Shown here piece after piece: positions 7,464-36,948 of a stretch of DNA of 64,000 nucleotides; positions within the stretch are counted from its first letter, which is position 1, and each line of letters begins with the position of its first letter. The stretch is from Spirochaetota bacterium. Its GTDB lineage: Bacteria > Spirochaetota > UBA4802 > UBA5550. Under the pieces are notes generated by a model. The model was not told where the DNA came from. It worked only from the letters and a program-made list of their open reading frames with translations, and made no database searches. The stretch lies in NCBI GenBank assembly GCA_017999915.1, contig JAGNKX010000003.1:186001-250000 (forward strand). The letters are read 5' to 3'. Position numbers and translations under genes: made by a program.

Positions 7464-7588
7464 ATCCTGATTCCTGGAGTATAATACTCTGTTAAGTCAA
7501 TTCATTGAGTTGATCATATATAATTCACGGTGTATTAAAATCAATAGAAAAAATAGTATGATTCAATTCTCACGTCCAATAAATCATC

Positions 7589-7832
7589 AGAGGCGAAAAA
7601 TGCCTGCTTAGTGCGAAGTGGAATTGAATAACATGTAGAAAATCATCTCTCAAACGAGCAAAACATGGTGCGCTGATCAGGATGATCGAGTGCAGAGCCG
7701 CGACAGGATGTCGCAATAAGGCTCTGCTTTTGCGTGAAGCGAGGATGGTTCACGATGAACCTTCCGCAGCAAAACAACAGACATCATTTGCTAACAAACA
7801 AACAAAGCAATAAGCAGGCATGTTTCGCCTCT
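7589..7832. repeat. Intergenic element with 22-bp terminal inverted repeats
   Basis: The ends at 7589-7610 and 7811-7832 are inverted copies with one mismatch (core GCCTGCTTA and its complement). Inside are nested stem-loops: GCAGAGCC at 7692-7699 pairs with GGCTCTGC at 7720-7727, enclosing the small hairpin GCGACAGGATGTCGC at 7700-7714. A further hairpin, GGTTCA-CGA-TGAACC, follows. No coding frame fits. The size and structure resemble a MITE or a REP-like element. The small hairpin is nearly the same as one in the element at 43529-43667. The element fills most of the 498-base gap between 7464 and 7961; the flanks are AT-rich and show nothing else. Confidence 0.6.
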
Positions 7833-7961
7833 AAATAATACTTTCTGCTCATTTCCATATACATAGCAATTGACAAAATTATTATAATCATTAAAGGTGA
7901 GTAATAGACAAAATTATATCTGAGTGTCTAAAACTCGGATAAGCATATAAAGGGACGCGTG

Positions 7962-8867
7962 ATGTCACACCAATCCGGATCATTGATCTCCATATTCCTT
8001 GCCCTCGGCGCAAATCTATTGATCGCCCTGTCGAAATTCATAGCGGCGATGGTGACCGGCTCCGGCGCAATGCTCGCCGAGGCGGTGCATTCCTCTGCGG
8101 ACTGCGCCAACCAGGGCCTGCTCCTGTACGGGATAAAAAGGTCCAGGAAGCCGGCCAACCCCGAGCATCCCCTCGGGTACGGCATGGCGGTTTATTTCTG
8201 GTCCTTCATCGTGGCGATAATCCTCTTCTCCCTCGGGGGCCTTTTCTCTGTTTACGAGGGCATCAAGAAGATGAACGCTCCGGAGCAGCTGGAGAACCCG
8301 GCGGTGGCCCTGGTGATTCTCGGCATCAGCATTGTCCTTGAATCGATTTCCCTGGCCGGCTGCCTGAGACAGGTGAATAAAACAAGGGGGGGTCAGAGCC
8401 TCCTCCGGTGGTTCAGGACGAGCCGCCAGAGCGAGCTCCTGGTGGTCTTCGGCGAGGACCTGGCCGCCCTCCTGGGTCTGACCGTGGCTTTTGTGTCGAT
8501 ACTGCTTACCCTTTTCACGGCCGACCCGTTCTATGACGCCCTGGGGAGCGTCATCATCGGCGTCATTCTCGTAAGCGTCGCTGTCAGCGTCGGCAACGAG
8601 GTCAAGAACCTCCTGATCGGCCAGAGCACCAGCGAGGCGACCCGCAGGGAGATCCATGATTTCCTCTGTTCCAGGGAGGAGATACGGCAGGTGCTGAACA
8701 TCATCACCCTGCAGATGGGACCGGACATCATGGTGGCGGTCAAGGCGGAGATGAAGGAATGCCCGAGCTGCGCCCTTCAGACCGAGGCCATCAATGCCTG
8801 CGAAGCCGCGCTGAAGGAAAAGTTCCCCGCCATACGGTGGTCCTTTTTTGAGCCGGATGTACGGTGA
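7962..8867 (+). CDS. Cation diffusion facilitator (CDF) family transporter
   Basis: This is a CDF metal/proton antiporter of about 301 residues with six membrane segments. It has the family landmarks HSSADCANQ in segment 2, the conserved HPLGYG loop and a second acidic site (FGEDLAALLG) in segment 5. The last 75 residues form the cytoplasmic ferredoxin-like regulatory domain. The HPLGYG motif and wide hydrophobic insert are closest to the ZnT9-like branch. The likely role is export of zinc or a similar divalent ion from the cytoplasm. A GTG at 7959 precedes the ATG at 7962; the ATG is better placed, 6 bases after AAGGGA. It stands alone behind the repeat element. Confidence 0.9.
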   Translation: MSHQSGSLISIFLALGANLLIALSKFIAAMVTGSGAMLAEAVHSSADCANQGLLLYGIKRSRKPANPEHPLGYGMAVYFWSFIVAIILFSLGGLFSVYEGIKKMNAPEQLENPAVALVILGISIVLESISLAGCLRQVNKTRGGQSLLRWFRTSRQSELLVVFGEDLAALLGLTVAFVSILLTLFTADPFYDALGSVIIGVILVSVAVSVGNEVKNLLIGQSTSEATRREIHDFLCSREEIRQVLNIITLQMGPDIMVAVKAEMKECPSCALQTEAINACEAALKEKFPAIRWSFFEPDVR

Positions 8868-9078
8868 TTGAAATGCAGGCTGGACGACGATCAAAGTGCT
8901 TCCTTGGCGCATAACAAAAATATCATATCCTTTCATAAAGAAAGAGAATTTTTGTAGACATGCGGTTCCGCCCGTGGTGATTCATTCCAGATGATATATC
9001 AATGCATCTGTGAAAAAAACGCGATAACGGCATGGCCCGGAGAGGGGCCGCGCCATCATGCGCCACCGGGAGAGGGTT

Positions 9079-9801
9079 ATGAGCATCCTGTCATGGGAAA
9101 AGAATGAATCGGTCGCGGTCATCAAGATGTCCAACGGGGAAAACCGGATGAACCAGGTTTTTACGGACACCATGATCGCAATCATGGATGAAATAGCTGC
9201 GGATACCTCGATATCGTCGGTCATGATCCTTTCGGGAGACGGCAAGTTCTGGTCCACCGGCCTGGACGTGCAGTGGGCCCTGGGCCTGGCCCAGGCCGGC
9301 AACATGGCGGCGATACGCACCTTCATGGAATCCATCAATGAGATGTTCAAAAAGATACTTCTTTTCCCGATGCCGGTCATAGCCGTCATCAACGGCCACG
9401 CCTTCGGCGCCGGAGCCATATTCTCCTGCGTATGCGACTTCCGCTTCATGAAGGCGGACCGGGGCTATTTCTGTTTTCCCGAGGTCGATATAGGCATACC
9501 CTTCCTGCCCAGCGAGATCGCCTTTATCACCAGGTACGTGCCGCACCGCCTTTTTCAGGAGATGGTCTTTTCCGGCAAGCGGTACGGCGCCGCGGACCTG
9601 GAGGGCCACGGGATCATCGAGAAGGCCTGCGCCGATGAGGCCGACCTGATGGCCCGGTCCCTGGCTTTCGCGAAGTCCTACAAGAAAAAGCGGGGGATCT
9701 TCGGCGAGATGAAGCGGCGCCTCAACAACCGCATCATCGAGATCATGGACAACGAGGACGCGAAATACGTAAACACCGGAACCATGCTTATTCTGGACTG
9801 A
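9079..9801 (+). CDS. Enoyl-CoA hydratase/isomerase (crotonase) family protein
   Basis: The protein has 240 residues. The crotonase fold is shown by the oxyanion-hole region GDGKFWSTGLDVQW and the second oxyanion motif NGHAFGAGAIFSCVCDFRFM, followed by CFPEVDIGIPF. The aspartate of VDIGIPF lies where many isomerase-type members have their acid/base residue, while the first Glu of true hydratases is not evident. An enoyl-CoA isomerase, or another acyl-CoA-acting enzyme, is therefore more likely than a classical hydratase. The start at 9079 follows GGGAGAGGG; an ATG 21 bases upstream would add a basic leader with no ribosome site. No other beta-oxidation gene is next to it. Confidence 0.86.
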   Translation: MSILSWEKNESVAVIKMSNGENRMNQVFTDTMIAIMDEIAADTSISSVMILSGDGKFWSTGLDVQWALGLAQAGNMAAIRTFMESINEMFKKILLFPMPVIAVINGHAFGAGAIFSCVCDFRFMKADRGYFCFPEVDIGIPFLPSEIAFITRYVPHRLFQEMVFSGKRYGAADLEGHGIIEKACADEADLMARSLAFAKSYKKKRGIFGEMKRRLNNRIIEIMDNEDAKYVNTGTMLILD

Positions 9802-9838
9802 TGGGCATGAGCTTTATCCTTCGCCATGCGGGTCGTTT

Positions 9839-9966
9839 CTCGCAGAGGCACAGAGACGCAGAGTAAATTGATATTTGATTAATGGAAACAGCAATTTTAA
9901 CGAGAAAGAAAATATACCTGAAAGATTAACTAACCAAATATCTCTGCGCCTCTGCGCCTCCGCGAG
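9839..9966. repeat. Inverted-repeat element of the CGCAGAGGCGCAGAG type
   Basis: A 25-base sequence at 9839-9863, built from GCAGAG units, recurs inverted at 9942-9966 with four differences. The 78 bases between are AT-rich and non-coding. Short repeats of this composition are scattered in many environmental bacterial genomes and have no known function. The rest of the gap to 10146 holds no gene. Confidence 0.6.
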
Positions 9967-10146
9967 ATATCTTTTGAAGTCGCTGCTTGCAGGATCGGCG
10001 TTTGGTCGGGATAGCACCCCGCTCCTAAACAGGGAATCAGAATGGAAAAAGTTAACTTATATGCTTGACAAAAAATGCCGCAGCGGCGACTACACTTTAT
10101 CGTTTTTATTATGACATTTATTAATTGATGAGGAATCGAAGAGACC

Positions 10147-10299
10147 ATGAAAATTGACGATTGCCAGACATGCAAGAACCATATATCGTACCAGAACGGC
10201 TACGTCCTCTGTAATTACTGGAAGATGCAGGAGCAGAGGGTGACGGGCAAGAGGGAAGGCGGCGTTACTTATATTGTCGCCTGTCCCCGCGAGGAATAG
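10147..10299 (+). CDS. Small Cys-rich protein (50 aa), probable metal binder
   Basis: This short open frame encodes 50 residues beginning MKIDDCQTCKNH. It has a CxxC pair near the start, then LCNYW and a last cysteine in ACPREE, a spacing consistent with a small zinc ribbon or knuckle. The leader GAGGAATCGAAGAGACC provides a ribosome site. It lies 29 bases before another Cys-rich mini-protein and the two are probably co-transcribed. I cannot assign a family. Good codon usage, a start signal and the conserved-looking cysteine spacing support a real gene. Confidence 0.62.
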   Translation: MKIDDCQTCKNHISYQNGYVLCNYWKMQEQRVTGKREGGVTYIVACPREE

Positions 10300-10328
10300 C
10301 GTGGCGATGCGCGTAAGGAGGATGTTTC

Positions 10329-10523
10329 ATGGCCTGCGATAACGTACAGAAGAACATGTCCTTTTGCAACTGTTCCTATGAGCCGTGCAGCAGGAAGGGC
10401 AAGTGCTGCGAGTGCGTTCAGTACCACCGCAGGTCCAACGAACTCCCGGCCTGCTTTTTCCCTGACGATATAGAAAAGACCTATGACAGGTCCGTCAGGA
10501 AATTCATCCAGTGCCAGAAATAA
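10329..10523 (+). CDS. DUF6485-type Cys-rich small protein
   Basis: The protein has 64 residues with eight cysteines: [19 protein letters not shown], then LPACFFP and a C-terminal QCQK. This matches the DUF6485 family, cytosolic mini-proteins of unknown function found mainly in anaerobes. The spacing suggests two metal sites (zinc or Fe-S). The start has a near-perfect TAAGGAGG ribosome site 7 bases upstream. It pairs with the 50-residue Cys-rich gene just before it. A hairpin follows, so the two genes probably form their own short transcript, separate from htpX. Confidence 0.85.
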
Positions 10524-10577
10524 TCCGGCGCGCCGCTTTACGCGGGGCCCCGCGGATAGTATATTTATAGTAAATAA

Positions 10578-10604
10578 AAAGGGGGATCCTGAGGCATCCC
10601 CTTT
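10578..10604 (+). terminator. Probable terminator after the Cys-rich pair
   Basis: The run AAAGGGGGAT pairs with ATCCCCTTT across an 8-base loop, one base bulged. It lies 55 bases after the DUF6485 stop and 34 bases before the htpX start. The T-run is short (CTTTGATATA), so termination may be partial. Confidence 0.45.
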
Positions 10605-10637
10605 GATATATACATACCAACCCGGGAGGTGCCTACT

Positions 10638-11456
10638 ATGCTGACTACCTTCATACTGCTCTTCGCTTTAACGGCTTTCTTCATAATAATCGGAAGGATC
10701 ATTGCGGGTAAAAAGGGCATGGTTATCGCCTTCATCCTTGCCCTCGTGATGAATTTCGCCACCTACTGGTTCTCCGACTCGCTGATCCTGTCGGCCTATA
10801 GCGCCCAGCCGGTGCCGGCGGGCCACCGCCTCGAGAGGATAACCCATGAGCTGGCCAGGAAGGCCAACCTGCCGCTGCCCAAGGCCTATATCCTTCCCTC
10901 AAGGTCGCCCAACGCATTCGCCACGGGGCGCAACCCGGAGCACGCGGCGGTCGCCGCGACGCAGGGTATCCTCGACATGATGAATGACGATGAGCTGGCC
11001 GCGGTCATGGCCCACGAGATGGGCCACGTGAAGAATTACGACATCCTCACCGGCTCGGTCGCGGCGTCCATATCCGGGGCCGTGATGATCCTTTCCCGCA
11101 TGGCCCTGTTCTTCGGCGGGAACAACAGGGCAAGCTTCGGCAAGCGCCTGGCGGTATCGATCCTCGCCCCGGTGGCGGCCACGATCATAACCATGGCTAT
11201 CTCCCGGGAGCGCGAGTACAAGGCGGACGAGTTTTCGGCTAAGCTGACGGGGCACCCCGAGTTTCTGGCGAGCGCCCTTCTTAATCTCGAGAAAGGGGTG
11301 AAGAGGGCCCCCATGGCGGACCACAGCCCGCAGACGGCCCACATGTTCATCGTGCATCCTTTTTCGGGGATGAGCATCGGAGAGGTATTTTCAACCCATC
11401 CCCCCGTTAAGAAGCGTGTCGAGCGGCTGATGGAGCTGAAAAAAGATATGAAATAG
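10638..11456 (+). CDS. htpX: HtpX-type M48 membrane metalloprotease
   Basis: The protein has 272 residues. Two N-terminal membrane segments (about 5-20 and 28-45) are followed by the M48 domain. The zinc motif is HEMGH at 126-130, and the third ligand lies in REREYKADEFS near residue 193. Two further hydrophobic stretches (about 140-185) complete the HtpX topology, with the active site facing the cytoplasm. HtpX cuts misfolded inner-membrane proteins and supports FtsH in envelope quality control. The ATG at 10638 is preferred over a GTG at 10629 because the GGGAGG site would overlap the GTG. It is 13 bases upstream of bioY and probably transcribed with it. Confidence 0.94.
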   Translation: MLTTFILLFALTAFFIIIGRIIAGKKGMVIAFILALVMNFATYWFSDSLILSAYSAQPVPAGHRLERITHELARKANLPLPKAYILPSRSPNAFATGRNPEHAAVAATQGILDMMNDDELAAVMAHEMGHVKNYDILTGSVAASISGAVMILSRMALFFGGNNRASFGKRLAVSILAPVAATIITMAISREREYKADEFSAKLTGHPEFLASALLNLEKGVKRAPMADHSPQTAHMFIVHPFSGMSIGEVFSTHPPVKKRVERLMELKKDMK

Positions 11457-29951: not shown

Positions 29952-31916
29952 CTAAAAATGCACGCCCAGGGACAGCTCGCCTCCCAGCTCTATATGGGAG
30001 GCCTTCCTGTCCGCGTCGAAATAGGCCGGCAGGGCCTTGGAGTACCTGAGGTTCGTGTAGGCCACGGTGACCCTGGTCCCCAGTATCAGCGGGAACCACT
30101 TGTTCAGGCTTATCTCCGGGCCGAAGCCGCCCCGAATGGTGTAGCCTTTAACGTTGGCAGAGTTGAACCTGCCCGATTGAAGAATGATGAGGGCCTGGCC
30201 CAAATTATAAAAAGGCGTGCCATAGATTCCCGCCATCCGGGCCCAGAGATAGGGCGCGTCACGGAGAGCTGATCCGGCTGTGAGGTTGCCGGAAACAATC
30301 TGCCCCCCCAGCAGGTAGAAGCTCAATATGACATTGTAGATATTGCTCCTGGGGCCCATGATGAGGCTTGCCGCGGGACCGGCTGCCCAGTAGTGGTATG
30401 TCGCGAGGCCCCCCTGGAAGAGGTCGCCTCCCAGGGACTTGTCGGCGTCCTGGTTGTTAAAGACCAGGGTGCCGGACATTTCGTAGCCGTAGCGAGCGCG
30501 CAGCCCGAACTTGAGGCCTGTCACATTGAATTTTTTCTTCACGGGGAACTTGATCGAGGGCGCCATGACGTCGACCTCCGGGCCCACGTTCAGGAACCAG
30601 GCCAGCATGGAGTATTTTACCGGTTTCAGGTACGCCATTGAAAGGTCGGCCTTGAACATGTCCACGCGGCGCTTCTCTTTGCCGGCAACGCCTCCCTGCC
30701 ATATGCCGCCGCCGCCGTACAGGGCCAGTCTCACGTAGGAATCGATGAACCCCCCGGGATGGGGCGGCGCCTCGGGAAGATCCTTTTTGATCTCGTCCCT
30801 GGCCGCGTCGGCCGCTCCGCCTTCCTCCCCGCCTCCCTCGGTCTCGTCGCCGCGGGAGCGCGTCGATTCGCGGTCCACCACGGCGAAGCCGTTGTAGGAG
30901 AGGGTCTGGCTGCTCCCCGGCGCCAGGGATATCTTCGCCTCGTAAAGCTTGCCGCCACGCTCGTTCAGCACCGTGTAGCTCCCGCTCTCCAAACCCAGGG
31001 TCACGGCCCGGCCGGCTCCCTTGTTCAGCTCCGCCACCAGGGCTTTCCGGTTGTCCCGGAGAAATATCCTGCCGGTAATGGGCTTCGAGAGGACCAGGGA
31101 ACTGGAGCTCCTGCGTATCTCCGTGAGGACCACGTCGCCTAAGCCGGACATCATGATGTGATAATTGGGGTGCTGGGGCCCGCGGAGGGTCTTCTCCGTG
31201 CGGGCCAGGGTTTCGGTATAGGCGTACTGGTACGCCTCGTTCAGGGTGATCCTGCCGTCGCCGATCTGGTCGGCGGCGCCGCGGAGACCAGTGAGGAGCG
31301 AGTGGGTGAAGAAAGAGCCCTTGATCCTGTCCGATTCCTGGGACGCCTCGTCGGAGGAGCTCGAGGTCATGAAGGCGAAGCCCTTCATGGAGTGTGACCT
31401 GTCCACCAGGAAGGGGGAGCGCATCCTCCCGCCCTTGATGCTGGTGAAGGCCCCGGAGGAGCAGGAGTCGAGGATGGCGATGCGCACATCGGCGGGGATG
31501 TTGATCACCGCCTGCTTGATGTCGCGGTAGAGGATCTTTTCGCCGCCCGGCATGATCCCTTCCTCGTCCGAGTGTCCGGAATAGTAGAACAGGAGCTCCA
31601 CCCGGGCGAAGCTCTTTTTCGCGCCGATCACCCGTCCCCGCATCTCGGCGATGGCGTCGATGAGGCGGTCTTTCCGCGGCTCCAGGAGGAGTATGGCGCT
31701 TTCCTGGTCCACCCCGCCGAGCTTCCTGAGGACCTCCATAACCGACCGTGCGTCCGTGATGGCGTAGCGCAGCCTGACACGGTCAGGGCCGCCGTTGTTC
31801 GATCCGATGATGACTGCGTAGCGCTTCATCACGTCCTGACGCGCCGCGTGACCGGTCCCGGCCGAGAAGGCCAGGGCCGCGATGATCAGTGCCGATAATG
31901 CCTGGAGGTACCGCAT
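29952..31916 (-). CDS. Secreted caspase-like protease fused to an outer-membrane beta-barrel
   Basis: The protein has 654 residues. A signal peptide (1-24) is followed by a caspase p20-like domain (about 30-270). The dyad is intact: His115 in YYSGHSDEEG and Cys152 in ILDSCSSGAF. A beta-rich linker follows (about 275-350) and an acidic low-complexity hinge (about 352-385). The remaining 265 residues are an outer-membrane barrel that ends in LSLGVHF, with the terminal phenylalanine used by the barrel-assembly machinery. The protease would sit in the periplasm, tethered to the outer membrane. The start at 31916 has AAGGAT upstream and lies just after the anti-sigma stop. It closes the sigma/anti-sigma operon. 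The barrel is shared with the gene at 33264-34514. Confidence 0.9.
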   Translation of the reverse strand: MRYLQALSALIIAALAFSAGTGHAARQDVMKRYAVIIGSNNGGPDRVRLRYAITDARSVMEVLRKLGGVDQESAILLLEPRKDRLIDAIAEMRGRVIGAKKSFARVELLFYYSGHSDEEGIMPGGEKILYRDIKQAVINIPADVRIAILDSCSSGAFTSIKGGRMRSPFLVDRSHSMKGFAFMTSSSSDEASQESDRIKGSFFTHSLLTGLRGAADQIGDGRITLNEAYQYAYTETLARTEKTLRGPQHPNYHIMMSGLGDVVLTEIRRSSSSLVLSKPITGRIFLRDNRKALVAELNKGAGRAVTLGLESGSYTVLNERGGKLYEAKISLAPGSSQTLSYNGFAVVDRESTRSRGDETEGGGEEGGAADAARDEIKKDLPEAPPHPGGFIDSYVRLALYGGGGIWQGGVAGKEKRRVDMFKADLSMAYLKPVKYSMLAWFLNVGPEVDVMAPSIKFPVKKKFNVTGLKFGLRARYGYEMSGTLVFNNQDADKSLGGDLFQGGLATYHYWAAGPAASLIMGPRSNIYNVILSFYLLGGQIVSGNLTAGSALRDAPYLWARMAGIYGTPFYNLGQALIILQSGRFNSANVKGYTIRGGFGPEISLNKWFPLILGTRVTVAYTNLRYSKALPAYFDADRKASHIELGGELSLGVHF

Positions 31917-31920
31917 GGCG

Positions 31921-32718
31921 TTAATCCTTGAGGAGTACCAGTGATGTCTGGCGGCTCCCGGTGTCAATTGATAATTCAGCTTTTTTCGCCCTGCCGGGGC
32001 TTGCGGCCAGCTTTTCCGCCGCCCTGTACAGGGCCCGGGCGTCAAGGGGAGACCGTGACGATATGAATATGAAGCGTTCGAACCCCGGGGCGTCGTCCAG
32101 CTCGTAGGAGCTCCGGAGAAATATCTTCCTGTTTTTCTCGATCCTGGTGTCCCGCGACGGCGAAGCCGGGTAATGTTGCGTCACGGTACCCCTGCCGTCC
32201 AGGGAGAGGATGACGCCGTGGGTGTCTTCTGCGGAATAGTAGGCGATCTGGAGGAGGTCCCTGTCGCGCACTTTGCTGGCTGCGGATAATTGCTCGGCGC
32301 CGCTCCCGCTCTTACGGTAGACATAGAGTTGGGCGCCGGTCCCCTTGACGCGGGTCACATCGTTCATGAATGGATCGGGGATGGTATCGTTGCCGCTCCT
32401 GATGATGGGGAAGAGGACAAGGACCGCGACGGCGGCGACAGCCGCCATGGACGGGACGAGAACCATCGCGCGGGAAAAACGACGGCCCGGGGCGGGGGCG
32501 ATCCCGCTGAGAGAGGCCCACTCGATGATCCGGGGGACGATCGTCTCGGGCCTGTAGCGGCGGAGTATCTTTCCATTGGATTCGTTTATTTGTTCAATGC
32601 GTTTGCGCAGCAGCGGATCCGCTTTCATCGTTTCCCTGATCCGTTCCATGACGTCGGGGGTAAGCTCGTTGAGCAGGTACCGTTCAAGGGTAATGTCTGG
32701 AATATGTTTTGCGTTCAT
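31921..32718 (-). CDS. Transmembrane anti-sigma factor with DUF4384-like periplasmic domain
   Basis: The protein has 265 residues. The N-terminal 80 residues are cytoplasmic and helical (RYLLNELTPDVMERIRETM...), without zinc ligands. One membrane segment spans about 84-106. The periplasmic part contains LLQIAYYSAEDTHGVILSLD and YELDDAPGFERFIFI, a domain often found beside bacterial caspase genes (DUF4384-like). Its ATG overlaps the sigma stop (ATGA), so the two are translationally coupled. It should hold the sigma factor at the membrane until a periplasmic signal, perhaps cleavage, releases it. Confidence 0.88.
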   Translation of the reverse strand: MNAKHIPDITLERYLLNELTPDVMERIRETMKADPLLRKRIEQINESNGKILRRYRPETIVPRIIEWASLSGIAPAPGRRFSRAMVLVPSMAAVAAVAVLVLFPIIRSGNDTIPDPFMNDVTRVKGTGAQLYVYRKSGSGAEQLSAASKVRDRDLLQIAYYSAEDTHGVILSLDGRGTVTQHYPASPSRDTRIEKNRKIFLRSSYELDDAPGFERFIFISSRSPLDARALYRAAEKLAASPGRAKKAELSIDTGSRQTSLVLLKD

Positions 32719-33206
32719 GACAGCATCTCCTCTGAAACCAGGCTCTGCGCGGAGGCCTGCAGCTTTTTCAGCCTTTTACGGACGCCCGAAACGGAGAGCC
32801 CCACTTCCCGCGCGACCTCCGCCAGGGTCATCCCGTCCACGTAATGGAGGACGGCTATCTCCCGCGACGACGCCGGATCCCTTTCGAAGATGCGGTCCAG
32901 CAGGTCGGCGACGCCAATCCGGTCCTCGGCATCGTCGTACCGCGCGATCGCGTCAAGGGCGTCGGAATCATGGGTCACCTGCTTTCTTTTCTCGTCCCTG
33001 ATCATGTTGAGGCACACGTTCGTCGCCATCCGGTAGAGGAGGCTCGACGGATAGGAGCCGGTAAGCTTCACGCGATTTCTGATCAGGTTCACGAATACCT
33101 CCTGCATGGCGTCCAGCGCCCTGTCTTCATCGTTGAGGAAGCGCCTGCACCTCCTGAGCACCATCGGTCCGTACCGCCTGTAATAGTCCTCTATGTCTAT
33201 GCTCAT
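32715..33206 (-). CDS. ECF-type RNA polymerase sigma factor
   Basis: The protein has 163 residues. Region 2 spans about 5-75 (YYRRYGPMVLRRCRRFL, then DAMQEVFVNLIRNR). Region 4 spans about 100-155 (IAVLHYVDGMTLAEVAREVGLSVSGVRKRLKKL). The ATG at 33206 is preferred: an ATG at 33239 would place a strong GC hairpin (33224-33251) across the start. The gene overlaps the anti-sigma gene by four bases. It probably drives its own operon and the barrel gene upstream. Confidence 0.93.
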   Translation of the reverse strand: MSIDIEDYYRRYGPMVLRRCRRFLNDEDRALDAMQEVFVNLIRNRVKLTGSYPSSLLYRMATNVCLNMIRDEKRKQVTHDSDALDAIARYDDAEDRIGVADLLDRIFERDPASSREIAVLHYVDGMTLAEVAREVGLSVSGVRKRLKKLQASAQSLVSEEMLS

Positions 33207-33263: not shown

Positions 33264-34514
33264 TCAGATATGAATCCCCACCGACACCTCGCCGCCCACT
33301 TCGTGATGGGCCGCCTTTGTGGTGGTGCCGCCGTATATGAGCGGCGCCTTCCCGAAGGTGAGGCTCGTATAGGCGTATGTCAGGTGGAACCCGACAACCA
33401 GCGGGAACCACTTGTTCAGGCTCACTTCCGGGCCGATGCCGCACCGGATGGTGTAGCCCTTCACGGTGGTTTTGTTGAGCGCGCTCAGGGTTAAAATGTT
33501 CACGCCGCTCATGAAGGGCGCCACGTTGCCGGCGCTCCATAACCCGACCAGGCGCGCTGTCAGAAGATTGGAATCGCGCAGCGCGGTCATGGGGTTGAGT
33601 CTGCCTCCGAAGACCTGGCCTGCCGTGCCGTACACGCTTATCATGAAGTTGACGACGTTGCTCCTCGGGCTGAAGATGAAATTCATGGTCGGACCGGCCG
33701 TCCAGTAATGGTACTGCAGCAGCCTGCCCATGAAGACATTGTCATCGTTGATGCCGTCGAATCCATGGCGGTATTCCGGCGTAATGACGCTCATTCCTTC
33801 CTCGTATCCATAGCGTCCCCTGACGCCGAACTTCAGGCCGGTGAAATCAAAGCCCCGCTTCTGGGCGAACCTGATGGCCGGAGCCATGAGCTCCGCCTCT
33901 GCTCCGCCGGTGGCGAAGGTTCCGTACTGGGAATAGCCCGGCGTATGGAGGGTGGCCATCATGAGGTCCGGCTTGTAGGCCCTGAAGACGCCCCGCTCCT
34001 TCTTGACGATGCCGCCATCCATCATTCCGCCGCCGCCGAAGATGGACATCCTGAAAATGGATGTATGGTATCCGCCGATCGGTTTTTTCGCCGTGTCAGC
34101 CGTTTCTTCCGGGGCGGTTTTCTTGAATATGTCGACGCTCCGGCCATCGCTGAATTCCAGCCGGGAAACCTGGTCGCGGCTGATGGATTTCTCCTCGCCC
34201 GCGCCGTCCTGCCGGTAGAAGATGGTTTCTTTCGTGACCCTCGAAATGGAGCACCTGATGGCGTCGCCGCCGGTGAGAATGATCGTATCCAGCTGAAAGT
34301 GCTGCTCCTTTCCGCCGGTGTAGATGATCTTTGAGATCCGGTCTTTGCTCACGGTGTCAAAGGCTGATGGGCCTTCAGGGTCGTATTCGACAGCCCCGTC
34401 GGTCACCTGTATGACCGCTCCTTTAAGGACCGTGCCATCCTTTAATATGATCTCGTCCGCGTAGAGCGCGCCGGCAGCGAAGATTGCCAGGATGAGGAAT
34501 AGTGGTTTTTTCAT
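33264..34514 (-). CDS. Outer-membrane barrel protein with N-terminal LKDG-type domain
   Basis: The protein has 416 residues with a signal peptide (to about 19). Residues about 20-130 contain repeated short strands (IILKDGTVLKG..., then AIRCSISRVTKETIFYRQDG) of a kind seen before envelope proteins. The C-terminal 270 residues match the barrel of the caspase fusion (GLKFGxRxRYGYE, YHYWTAGP, VKGYTIRxGxGPEVSLNKWFPL) and end in VSVGIHI. The ATG at 34514 follows AAGGGGG. It is the first gene of the block that continues with the sigma factor. It probably provides a sensor or partner barrel in the outer membrane. Confidence 0.85.
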   Translation of the reverse strand: MKKPLFLILAIFAAGALYADEIILKDGTVLKGAVIQVTDGAVEYDPEGPSAFDTVSKDRISKIIYTGGKEQHFQLDTIILTGGDAIRCSISRVTKETIFYRQDGAGEEKSISRDQVSRLEFSDGRSVDIFKKTAPEETADTAKKPIGGYHTSIFRMSIFGGGGMMDGGIVKKERGVFRAYKPDLMMATLHTPGYSQYGTFATGGAEAELMAPAIRFAQKRGFDFTGLKFGVRGRYGYEEGMSVITPEYRHGFDGINDDNVFMGRLLQYHYWTAGPTMNFIFSPRSNVVNFMISVYGTAGQVFGGRLNPMTALRDSNLLTARLVGLWSAGNVAPFMSGVNILTLSALNKTTVKGYTIRCGIGPEVSLNKWFPLVVGFHLTYAYTSLTFGKAPLIYGGTTTKAAHHEVGGEVSVGIHI

Positions 34515-34573: not shown

Positions 34574-34612
34574 CCGGTATGGGCCCGTTTCTTAATGTAA
34601 CACCGGTATGGG
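34574..34612. promoter_or_regulatory. Direct repeat CCGGTATGGG, two copies 29 bases apart
   Basis: CCGGTATGGG occurs at 34574-34583 and 34603-34612, 60 to 98 bases upstream of the barrel gene start on the minus strand. The spacing of about three helical turns fits two bound protein molecules on one face of the DNA. Candidate regulators are the local sigma factor or the adjacent AraC-type receptor. Confidence 0.4.
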
Positions 34613-34713
34613 AAAAAACTGTTACCGCGTTTTCATTTATTTTTTCCATCGACGGGGGCCTGCTGCGGTCATCATGGCTCTGACCCCTTTCCTGATGACG
34701 ATCCGGTCCCGGT

Positions 34714-36948
34714 TCATCCCGGCAAGCCTTGTTCTTTTTGATCGGCCGGGATTTCCTCCGCGCCGCGGTCTTTGTATTCCGACGGGGTTATGCCCATTAT
34801 CTTCAAAAAGGTCCGGTTGAAGGTGCTCAGGCTTTCAAAGCCGACGGCGAAGGCGATGTTGATGATGGTCCCCTGGTCCCGGGCGCGTAGCCTCTCGGCT
34901 GCGTCGTGGATGCGCAGCTCGTTTATGTACTCGTTGATCTTCTTCCCGGTGTGGATCTTGAAGAATTTCCCCAGGTGGTTCGGGCTTATGTCCAGGGAGG
35001 CGGCAAGGCCTTCCCGTGAGATGTCGGAGGTGTAGTTCTCCCGGATGTAGGAGACGGCCCTGTCGATTTTTTCTTCCGTAAGGGACGTGATCGAGTAGGT
35101 CTTGCTGTCCTGTTCGCGTTGATTCGTGCTCCGGTATGTGAATGCGTTGTCGAATACCTCGATGAGATTGTCGGCGAACGCCATCATTATCGATGAATCC
35201 TTTTCGGTAAATCCGTAATCTGATGACGCTTTCTCGAAGTAGCATATGCCCAGGACGCCATGATCGGATTTGATGGGGATGCACATCACGGGATGCTCGG
35301 GCGCCGTATCGCCGCTGCTGGCCTTGCCGGTAGATGTTATGACGGGCAATCCCCGGGACAGCACTTCCTCGATGATCAATGGCGAGTACCCGTCGTTCCT
35401 TCCTTCGATCTCATCTATGTATGACCGGAGCTCAAGGTAATTATCATCTTCGACAGTGAGGAAATATATCTTGTCCGCCTGTGTGAGCTCCTTGGCTTTC
35501 AGAATCGTCTTTTCCCTGAGCTCTTCGATGTTCGATATGATGCTTATGTCCTGGCTCAGTTTCTTGATGGCAAGCTCCCGCTGGTTGTCGAGAATCGTCC
35601 GGATCGAGGGAGTGTATGCCGCTGCGGCGTCTCCGGCCGGGGCCTTTCCTTTCCTGTCCTCGGTGATCTTCGAGACTATTTCGCTCAAGAGGAGCTCGAT
35701 GCTCCGCTCCTTGATCTCGCCTTCGAGCTTTTTTGAGACCGCCTGAAGGCCCTTGCGCATGAGGTTCATGCGGTCCACCAGGGCGATGGACAGGATGATC
35801 AGGAACGCGGCGGAGCCGATTATGATCGACCATGTCGTCAGAAAGCTTCCCGGTATCAGCCCGAAGCTCCTGAACACGTACAGCACCGATCCGGCCATGA
35901 ATCCCAGGCTGATGAGGGCGTAGAGATAGGCGTTACGCTGCCTGCGCGCCACCAGATAGACGCCGACGCTGAAGGCCGTGATGATGGTCACCACCGTCAG
36001 GAAGGCGGTGGCGGGCATGATGATCTTGTAGGAGCCGAGGATTGGGATGGTCGCCACTGACAGCGTCGCGGCCAGAAGAACACCGGCCTGGGCGTCCAGT
36101 ATTTTCTTGAACAGCGGGGCGTTCTTTTTAAGCTGGAGAAATACCAGGATGAAGCGATTGCCGGTGATGTTGGCGAAGCAGAGGAACAGGGGAGGGCATA
36201 TCTCCGCCAGCTTCGGGCTTTCCGGCATGAGGTGCTGGAAGGTGACACCGATCTGGGACATGATGAAAAGCAGGATCGACAGAATGAAGAGGGAAAAGTT
36301 CAGATAGCTGAGGTGGCGGATCAGGAAGTAGACGCAGAGGTAATTGAAGGCCATGATGATCATCATGCCGTAATAGAACATGAGGAGTCTCTCTTCCAGG
36401 AGGGCCGACGTCGCGAAATGATCAGGTGACCAGATCGTGAGAGGGAAATACATGGAGCTCGGCGTCTGCTGCCGCAGGTAATAGGTTTTTGTCGAATTGG
36501 CTTCCTGCGTCAGGGGAAAGACAAAAGTCCGGTGGGGATAGGGACGGTCGGTGAAATCATACCGAGCCCCTGTTCGCATAGTCCGGAAGGCGTTATTTCC
36601 CTTGGGCGTGAAGAGCTGGAGATCGGATATGAGCGGGTAACCATGCTCAAGAAAAAAAGAAATCTCTTTTCCCGTTGTATTGACCACGGTAAAGCGCGCC
36701 CAGTATACGTTTCCTGTAAAACCAAACCCAGGATAAACTTCGGTGGAGGGCGACCATAACGCCCCCTTTGACGGCCCGGAAACATCGGTAATGGAAAGGG
36801 TCACCTTTTCGTCTTTCAGGAAATCAATATATAATCCTATGGGTATTTTTTTCAGCGAATCATCGATTCTGATCGGCGCGGAATAGAGTGAGGATGCAAG
36901 CATGAGAATACCGATGGCGGCCTCGGCAATGAGGCGGATTCCTTTCAT
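34714..36948 (-). CDS. 7TM-DISM receptor fused to GAF and AraC DNA-binding domains
   Basis: The protein has 744 residues. A signal peptide and periplasmic 7TMR-DISMED2-like domain (about 30-175) are followed by seven membrane segments (about 185-390). Next are a coiled coil, a GAF-like domain (about 465-610) and a C-terminal AraC/XylS pair of helix-turn-helix motifs (about 640-740: REGLAASLDISPNHLGKFFKIHTGKKINEYINELR, shown here only as landmarks, then FAVGFESLSTFNRTF). It would bind DNA while in the inner membrane. Its gene is 199 bases upstream of the barrel gene on the same strand, with CCGGTATGGG repeats between them. It belongs to the same sensor class as the protein at 20070 but has a different output. 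Confidence 0.93.
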   Translation of the reverse strand: MKGIRLIAEAAIGILMLASSLYSAPIRIDDSLKKIPIGLYIDFLKDEKVTLSITDVSGPSKGALWSPSTEVYPGFGFTGNVYWARFTVVNTTGKEISFFLEHGYPLISDLQLFTPKGNNAFRTMRTGARYDFTDRPYPHRTFVFPLTQEANSTKTYYLRQQTPSSMYFPLTIWSPDHFATSALLEERLLMFYYGMMIIMAFNYLCVYFLIRHLSYLNFSLFILSILLFIMSQIGVTFQHLMPESPKLAEICPPLFLCFANITGNRFILVFLQLKKNAPLFKKILDAQAGVLLAATLSVATIPILGSYKIIMPATAFLTVVTIITAFSVGVYLVARRQRNAYLYALISLGFMAGSVLYVFRSFGLIPGSFLTTWSIIIGSAAFLIILSIALVDRMNLMRKGLQAVSKKLEGEIKERSIELLLSEIVSKITEDRKGKAPAGDAAAAYTPSIRTILDNQRELAIKKLSQDISIISNIEELREKTILKAKELTQADKIYFLTVEDDNYLELRSYIDEIEGRNDGYSPLIIEEVLSRGLPVITSTGKASSGDTAPEHPVMCIPIKSDHGVLGICYFEKASSDYGFTEKDSSIMMAFADNLIEVFDNAFTYRSTNQREQDSKTYSITSLTEEKIDRAVSYIRENYTSDISREGLAASLDISPNHLGKFFKIHTGKKINEYINELRIHDAAERLRARDQGTIINIAFAVGFESLSTFNRTFLKIMGITPSEYKDRGAEEIPADQKEQGLPG

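Follow-up and report, generated by a model that had tools for sequence, protein, structure and literature searches.

An operon encoding an ECF sigma factor, a predicted anti-sigma factor and a secreted caspase with a predicted C-terminal barrel in Spirochaetota and other phyla

A stretch of 64,000 nucleotides from contig JAGNKX010000003.1 of a Spirochaetota bacterium (assembly GCA_017999915.1), referred to as the window, contains an operon in which the gene for an extracytoplasmic function (ECF) sigma factor is followed by genes for a predicted membrane-bound anti-sigma factor and for a secreted caspase that is predicted to end in a beta-barrel. The trio of sigma factor, anti-sigma factor and caspase is a strongly conserved operon over several phyla. 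We propose, at what we judge to be about even chances, that it forms an autoregulated envelope-stress system in which a caspase tethered to the outer membrane cuts the stalk of the anti-sigma factor to free the sigma factor. The sigma factor would transcribe its own operon, consisting of the genes for a twin barrel, the sigma factor itself, the anti-sigma factor and the caspase-barrel protein, together with a small set of other genes. The caspase, held at the outer membrane by its C-terminal beta-barrel, would face the periplasm, and a changed state of the outer membrane would enable it to cut the anti-sigma factor after a basic residue in the periplasmic stalk, most likely between Lys125 and Gly126 just outside the membrane helix. 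Further processing would then release the sigma factor. In this scheme, protease activity, cleavage of the anti-sigma factor, the cleavage site and the activating signal are what we infer. Bacterial caspases have mostly been discussed as cytoplasmic proteins or as proteins of cell death or defence. If the proposal is true, a large set of uncharacterised caspases would be given a concrete function in envelope signalling that can be tested, complete with a predicted cleavage site and promoter, and operon structure and a shared motif would extend this role over Spirochaetota, Myxococcota, Aminicenantes, Latescibacterota and others.

Operon structure, linkage and promoter motif

The anatomy of the operon, its linkage and the conservation of its promoter motif were computed here, as were the fold, catalytic dyad and S1 residues of the caspase, the predicted barrel and the stalk motif. 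As the original prediction had it, and in agreement with the coordinates, the anti-sigma factor gene overlaps the sigma factor gene by 4 nt and the ATG of the caspase gene, at position 31916, lies 4 nt beyond the anti-sigma factor stop. The sigma factor is a short protein comprising regions 2 and 4 (Pfam Sigma70_r2, E=2.6e-13; Sigma70_r4_2, E=2.4e-7). The operon reaches further upstream than the interval noted originally, to about position 34625, and includes a promoter motif and a paralogous, free-standing barrel gene. The same gene order and motif accompany the free-standing barrel gene in the sister genome (G003), and the N-terminus of its product bears weak similarity to a Leptospira N-terminal domain model. 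Directly upstream of the promoter motif, a gene at 34714-36948 on the minus strand encodes a protein with 7TMR-DISM, GAF and AraC-type helix-turn-helix domains.

Table 1 The operon and its promoter motif in the window
Feature	Coordinates	Strand	Basis and remarks
ECF-type promoter motif (putative), GTAACA-N15-GGTGTT (GTAACAGTTTTTTCCCATACCGGTGTT)	34599..34625	-	de novo motif; position kept in G003
Secreted free-standing barrel protein, first gene of the operon	33264..34514	-	C-terminal ~270 aa ~43% identical to the barrel of the caspase
ECF sigma factor, 163 aa	32715..33206	-	Pfam and NCBIfam sigma-70/ECF matches; orthologues adjoin the anti-sigma factor in relatives
Anti-sigma factor (predicted)	31921..32718	-	AlphaFold2 model; a model for a putative anti-sigmaE matches weakly, E=0.0046
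Secreted caspase with beta domain, linker and predicted 8-stranded barrel, 654 aa	29952..31916	-	Pfam, AlphaFold2, alignment

Linkage was assessed in a phylum sample of 345 genomes, with a threshold of E<=1e-30 for caspase matches, and in loci of named genomes (L-numbers). A scan of the latter yielded 366 related stretches, the best 80 of which were used for locus counts and represent Spirochaetota, Aminicenantes, Myxococcota, Latescibacterota, Acidobacteria, Fibrobacter and others. Relatives have caspase-core homologues in the same order of sigma factor, anti-sigma factor and caspase. The anti-sigma factor gene resides directly upstream of the caspase gene in 78 of the 80 loci; one of the two exceptions, L080, begins too close to the contig end for such a gene to be visible and the other, L074, is real. 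The caspase is present in 50 of the 345 phylum genomes, and the anti-sigma factor in 50/50 of those. Five further phylum genomes gave anti-sigma factor matches, which were cut by contig ends in G009 and G038 and weak in G057, G064 and G209. Four loci of Myxococcus and relatives (L093, L104, L106, L108) show the order motif, anti-sigma factor, caspase-barrel, and no sigma factor gene was detected at these loci; in Myxococcus, a sigma factor gene at another locus carries the same motif as these sigma-less operons. The genomes of Myxococcus and relatives also encode a further caspase without an adjoining anti-sigma factor. In the Latescibacterota loci L112, L121 and L126, the trio is followed, some 1.7 kb downstream, by another caspase gene of this family (~9150-10930).

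A de novo dyad search in 72 upstream regions revealed a motif shared by many of the trio operons, GTRACA-N15-GGTGTT, which is presumably the promoter of this very sigma factor. When occurrence was scored in 71 loci, GTRAC-N17-GTGTT was found in 41, in 36 cases within 400 nt of the sigma factor start, compared with 0.25 expected in shuffles. A looser pattern has three sites in the window's own genome (G000, 5.46 Mb), located at the operon itself, at the gene for an ABC ATPase and at that for a secreted protein of 212 aa, and in G003 the orthologous genes have all three sites too, with altered spacers. The ABC transporter ATPase gene behind this motif lies at G000:C3:272414, outside the window, and at G003:C64:19093.

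The caspase and the predicted anti-sigma factor

The assignment of the caspase is based on a Pfam Peptidase_C14 match (E=3.8e-11; 43.6 bits with a curated cut-off of 21.4), the sole Pfam caspase match in the genome. In the AlphaFold2 model, which has a mean predicted local distance difference test (pLDDT) score of 79, the caspase fold spans residues 27-269 and is followed by a beta domain at ~270-350. Comparison by VIA-align, covering mainly residues 27-269, gave Z scores of 18-19 to caspases, MALT1 and metacaspase-4, and Foldseek returned Yca1 with an E value of 1e-7. The original claim of a secreted caspase with an intact dyad of His115 and Cys152 proved correct, as both residues were verified and a signal peptide occupies approximately residues 1-25; nearly all homologues have a signal-like hydrophobic N-terminus. 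Alignment of the homologues revealed His115, Cys152 and the S1 aspartates Asp55 and Asp150 as invariant (80/80), which indicates selection for catalysis. The closest solved relatives by sequence are metacaspases. Among the residues proposed to form the S1 pocket of TbMCA2 are Asp95 and Asp211 (PMC4357240), and in all 80 proteins Asp55 and Asp150 sit at these positions, an equivalence derived from sequence alignment. Since these metacaspase-type aspartates are invariant, the caspase is predicted to share the basic P1 specificity of metacaspases, that is, to cleave after Lys or Arg. A reading as an anti-phage defence protein was discarded, because PADLOC gave only a marginal caspase match (E=0.00096).

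For the anti-sigma factor, AlphaFold2 predicts a helical cytosolic domain (residues 8-70), a membrane helix (87-107), a disordered stalk (108-120) and an outer beta-rich domain (130-264). Cytosolic helices, one membrane helix, an outer domain and the overlap with the sigma factor gene characterize it as a membrane anti-sigma factor, and it is predicted to bind and inhibit the sigma factor. The HxxxCxxC motif of ZAS anti-sigma factors is absent from the window protein, which has no Cys at all, and a Foldseek search with it gave no match at E <= 0.001. It had been suggested that the periplasmic domain is of a type found next to caspases (DUF4384). The model bears out an outer beta-rich domain, while the DUF4384 assignment itself could not be upheld, with 16.3 bits falling below the Pfam gathering score of 27. 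The stretch R123-x-K125-G126 belongs to the stalk that connects the membrane helix to the first strand, which begins at residue 130. Lys125-Gly126 is present in 80 of 81 aligned anti-sigma factors (the remaining one has a gap) and Arg123 in 69 of 81. The proposed cleavage of the anti-sigma factor would fit both the metacaspase-type, acidic S1 pocket and the Lys-Gly pair that is nearly invariant in the stalk.

The C-terminal barrel and its twins

Fusion of the caspase to a C-terminal barrel had also been proposed originally, and structure prediction agrees: the AlphaFold2 model has a disordered linker at residues 351-387 and then eight long strands within 395-653, mostly with high pLDDT. The signal peptide, the even count of long strands and the hydrophobic or aromatic C-terminal residue are hallmarks of outer-membrane barrels. 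The window protein ends in Phe, and hydrophobicity alternates clearly in some of its strands only. Among 70 complete family proteins, the last residue is hydrophobic in 57 and is Phe in 40 of these. The barrel thus modelled would probably insert into the outer membrane. Provided that its termini are periplasmic, an even-stranded barrel would place the caspase in the periplasm, in line with the orientation claimed originally; the protein has a signal peptide, and the C-terminal barrel would hold the caspase there. When the fusion was surveyed across genomes, it was confirmed as such, but it is not special to this locus, as similar C-terminal domains appear to be present in most members of the family.

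The window's own barrel family occurs in 17 of the 345 phylum genomes, all belonging to the window's order, and is fused to a caspase only in G000 and G003. In a tree, the two caspase-fused barrels, from the window and G003, group together, and the two free-standing ones do likewise. Caspase C-termini from 78 loci fall into six sequence clusters with 56, 13, 4, 3, 1 and 1 members, the largest of which includes proteins with LA_2272-type surface repeats. Lineages have exchanged barrel types, and the caspase core and the anti-sigma factor stay conserved. At least 14 loci contain a second gene related to the C-terminus of their own caspase, and in every one this gene is of the type that the local caspase carries. 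These twin genes mostly flank the trio directly (in L082 and L083 they are ~4 kb off), and the motif also lies upstream of the twin where both were seen, i.e., in the window, G003, G010, G018/G019, G040 and G056. The matching of twin and caspase barrels may reflect capture of a neighbour's barrel, functional pairing or both. In L064, two genes after the trio (7526-9655, plus strand) share the post-caspase domain and the C-terminal part with the caspase protein.

Since the barrel families change from lineage to lineage and caspase and anti-sigma factor do not, we tentatively favour, as a form of the proposed cleavage model, sensing of outer-membrane assembly over sensing of one ligand. The caspase-barrel protein could then be a sentinel of the outer membrane that reports on barrel assembly itself, a possibility that we consider rather doubtful. 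An inserted barrel would keep the caspase at the outer membrane, distant from the anti-sigma factor. If assembly failed, the unassembled protein would be free in the periplasm, reach the anti-sigma factor at the inner membrane and cut its stalk. If true, this would explain why interchangeable barrel families occur beside a conserved caspase and anti-sigma factor and why other motif-bearing genes encode secreted barrel-like proteins.

Alternative explanations and comparison with known systems

Several observations weigh against cleavage of the anti-sigma factor by the caspase in an autoregulated system. The Lys-Gly pair is kept in the distant anti-sigma factors of L261, L262 and L265, which have no adjoining caspase of this family, and is absent from that of L267, which has a divergent caspase beside it; the distant anti-sigma factor of L263 also lacks it. 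As the pair is found in caspase-free control loci, it may be structural, and its use as proof of cleavage was dropped as too strong. The strict promoter motif is missing from 30 of the 71 loci, some of which have variants. Genome-wide, the motif matches three times in G000 and the reversed-pattern control six times, and a large regulon read from pattern counts was rejected for this reason; only the conserved position of the motif points to a regulon. In three Myxococcales genomes (Myxococcus and relatives, L258-L260) the motif is followed by genes for a sigma factor, an anti-sigma factor and a barrel protein that keeps the signal peptide and has lost the caspase domain, and here barrel or anti-sigma factor may work without proteolysis encoded in cis.

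The position of the caspase gene as the last in the sigma factor's operon, under its presumed promoter, also fits an effector role. Some other signal would act via the anti-sigma factor, and the caspase-barrel protein would be an output of the regulon that does not cut the anti-sigma factor, possibly a protease clearing misfolded envelope proteins or attacking other targets. That an anti-sigma factor locus can be without a caspase domain and that the Lys-Gly motif is not limited to neighbours of caspases is in accord with this explanation. We nevertheless consider it unlikely, as anti-sigma factor and caspase form the tightest pair in the locus (78/80), kept even where no adjoining sigma factor gene was detected, and a mere member of the regulon should be found apart from the anti-sigma factor more frequently.

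According to the original prediction, the barrel senses an event at the cell surface, which it would relay via the linker to the caspase, and the caspase would then cut the anti-sigma factor. The barrel is borne out by the model, and inserts between its strands, the long linker and the LA_2272-type surface repeats of some other family members would suit such a sensor. However, six C-terminal clusters in 78 loci next to a conserved caspase core and anti-sigma factor make one common ligand unlikely; with barrel types exchanged, a particular ligand is not the most economical assumption, and we regard a surface sensor as improbable, even though each barrel type could still have a ligand of its own. 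Least probable, in our view, is a model without any cutting, in which the caspase-barrel protein, or just its barrel, binds the outer domain of the anti-sigma factor and alters its hold on the sigma factor. The barrel-only third genes of Myxococcales, whose loci share the promoter motif and in which the junction to the anti-sigma factor gene is tight, might suggest it, but all 80 caspases keep the dyad and the S1 aspartates.

The components of the proposed proteolytic system are of known kinds; for the combination of sigma factor, anti-sigma factor and caspase-barrel, no description was found in the searchable literature, which omits most subscription journals. In the sigmaE/RseA/DegS-RseP system of Escherichia coli, a membrane anti-sigma factor is first cut on the periplasmic side, which frees an ECF sigma factor for the outer-membrane stress response. 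A first periplasmic cut is presumed here as well. Unlike DegS, an inner-membrane PDZ serine protease, the presumed first protease would be a cysteine protease of the caspase family that a barrel anchors in the outer membrane and whose gene belongs to the operon itself. FecA/FecR/FecI-type systems likewise have the genes for an outer-membrane barrel protein, an anti-sigma factor and an ECF sigma factor together. In our case, however, the barrel is a predicted eight-stranded domain fused to a protease, and the two barrel proteins of the locus gave no Pfam match to a TonB-dependent receptor domain. With metacaspases and bacterial orthocaspases (Peptidase_C14) the window protein shares the caspase fold, the His/Cys dyad and S1 aspartates at the metacaspase positions. 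It differs from them in being secreted, in the beta domain and outer-membrane-type barrel that come after the caspase fold, and in its genetic coupling to an anti-sigma factor; no barrel was seen among accessory domains tabulated for cyanobacteria (PMC8283722). For ECF54, control by proteolytic enzymes has been proposed, and CHAT (caspase HetF associated with TPRs) proteins are encoded in the gene neighbourhood (PMC8999054). The operon described here resembles ECF54 in having caspase-type proteins near an ECF sigma factor for which proteolytic control is proposed, and differs from it in that the tightest partner of the caspase is a membrane anti-sigma factor.
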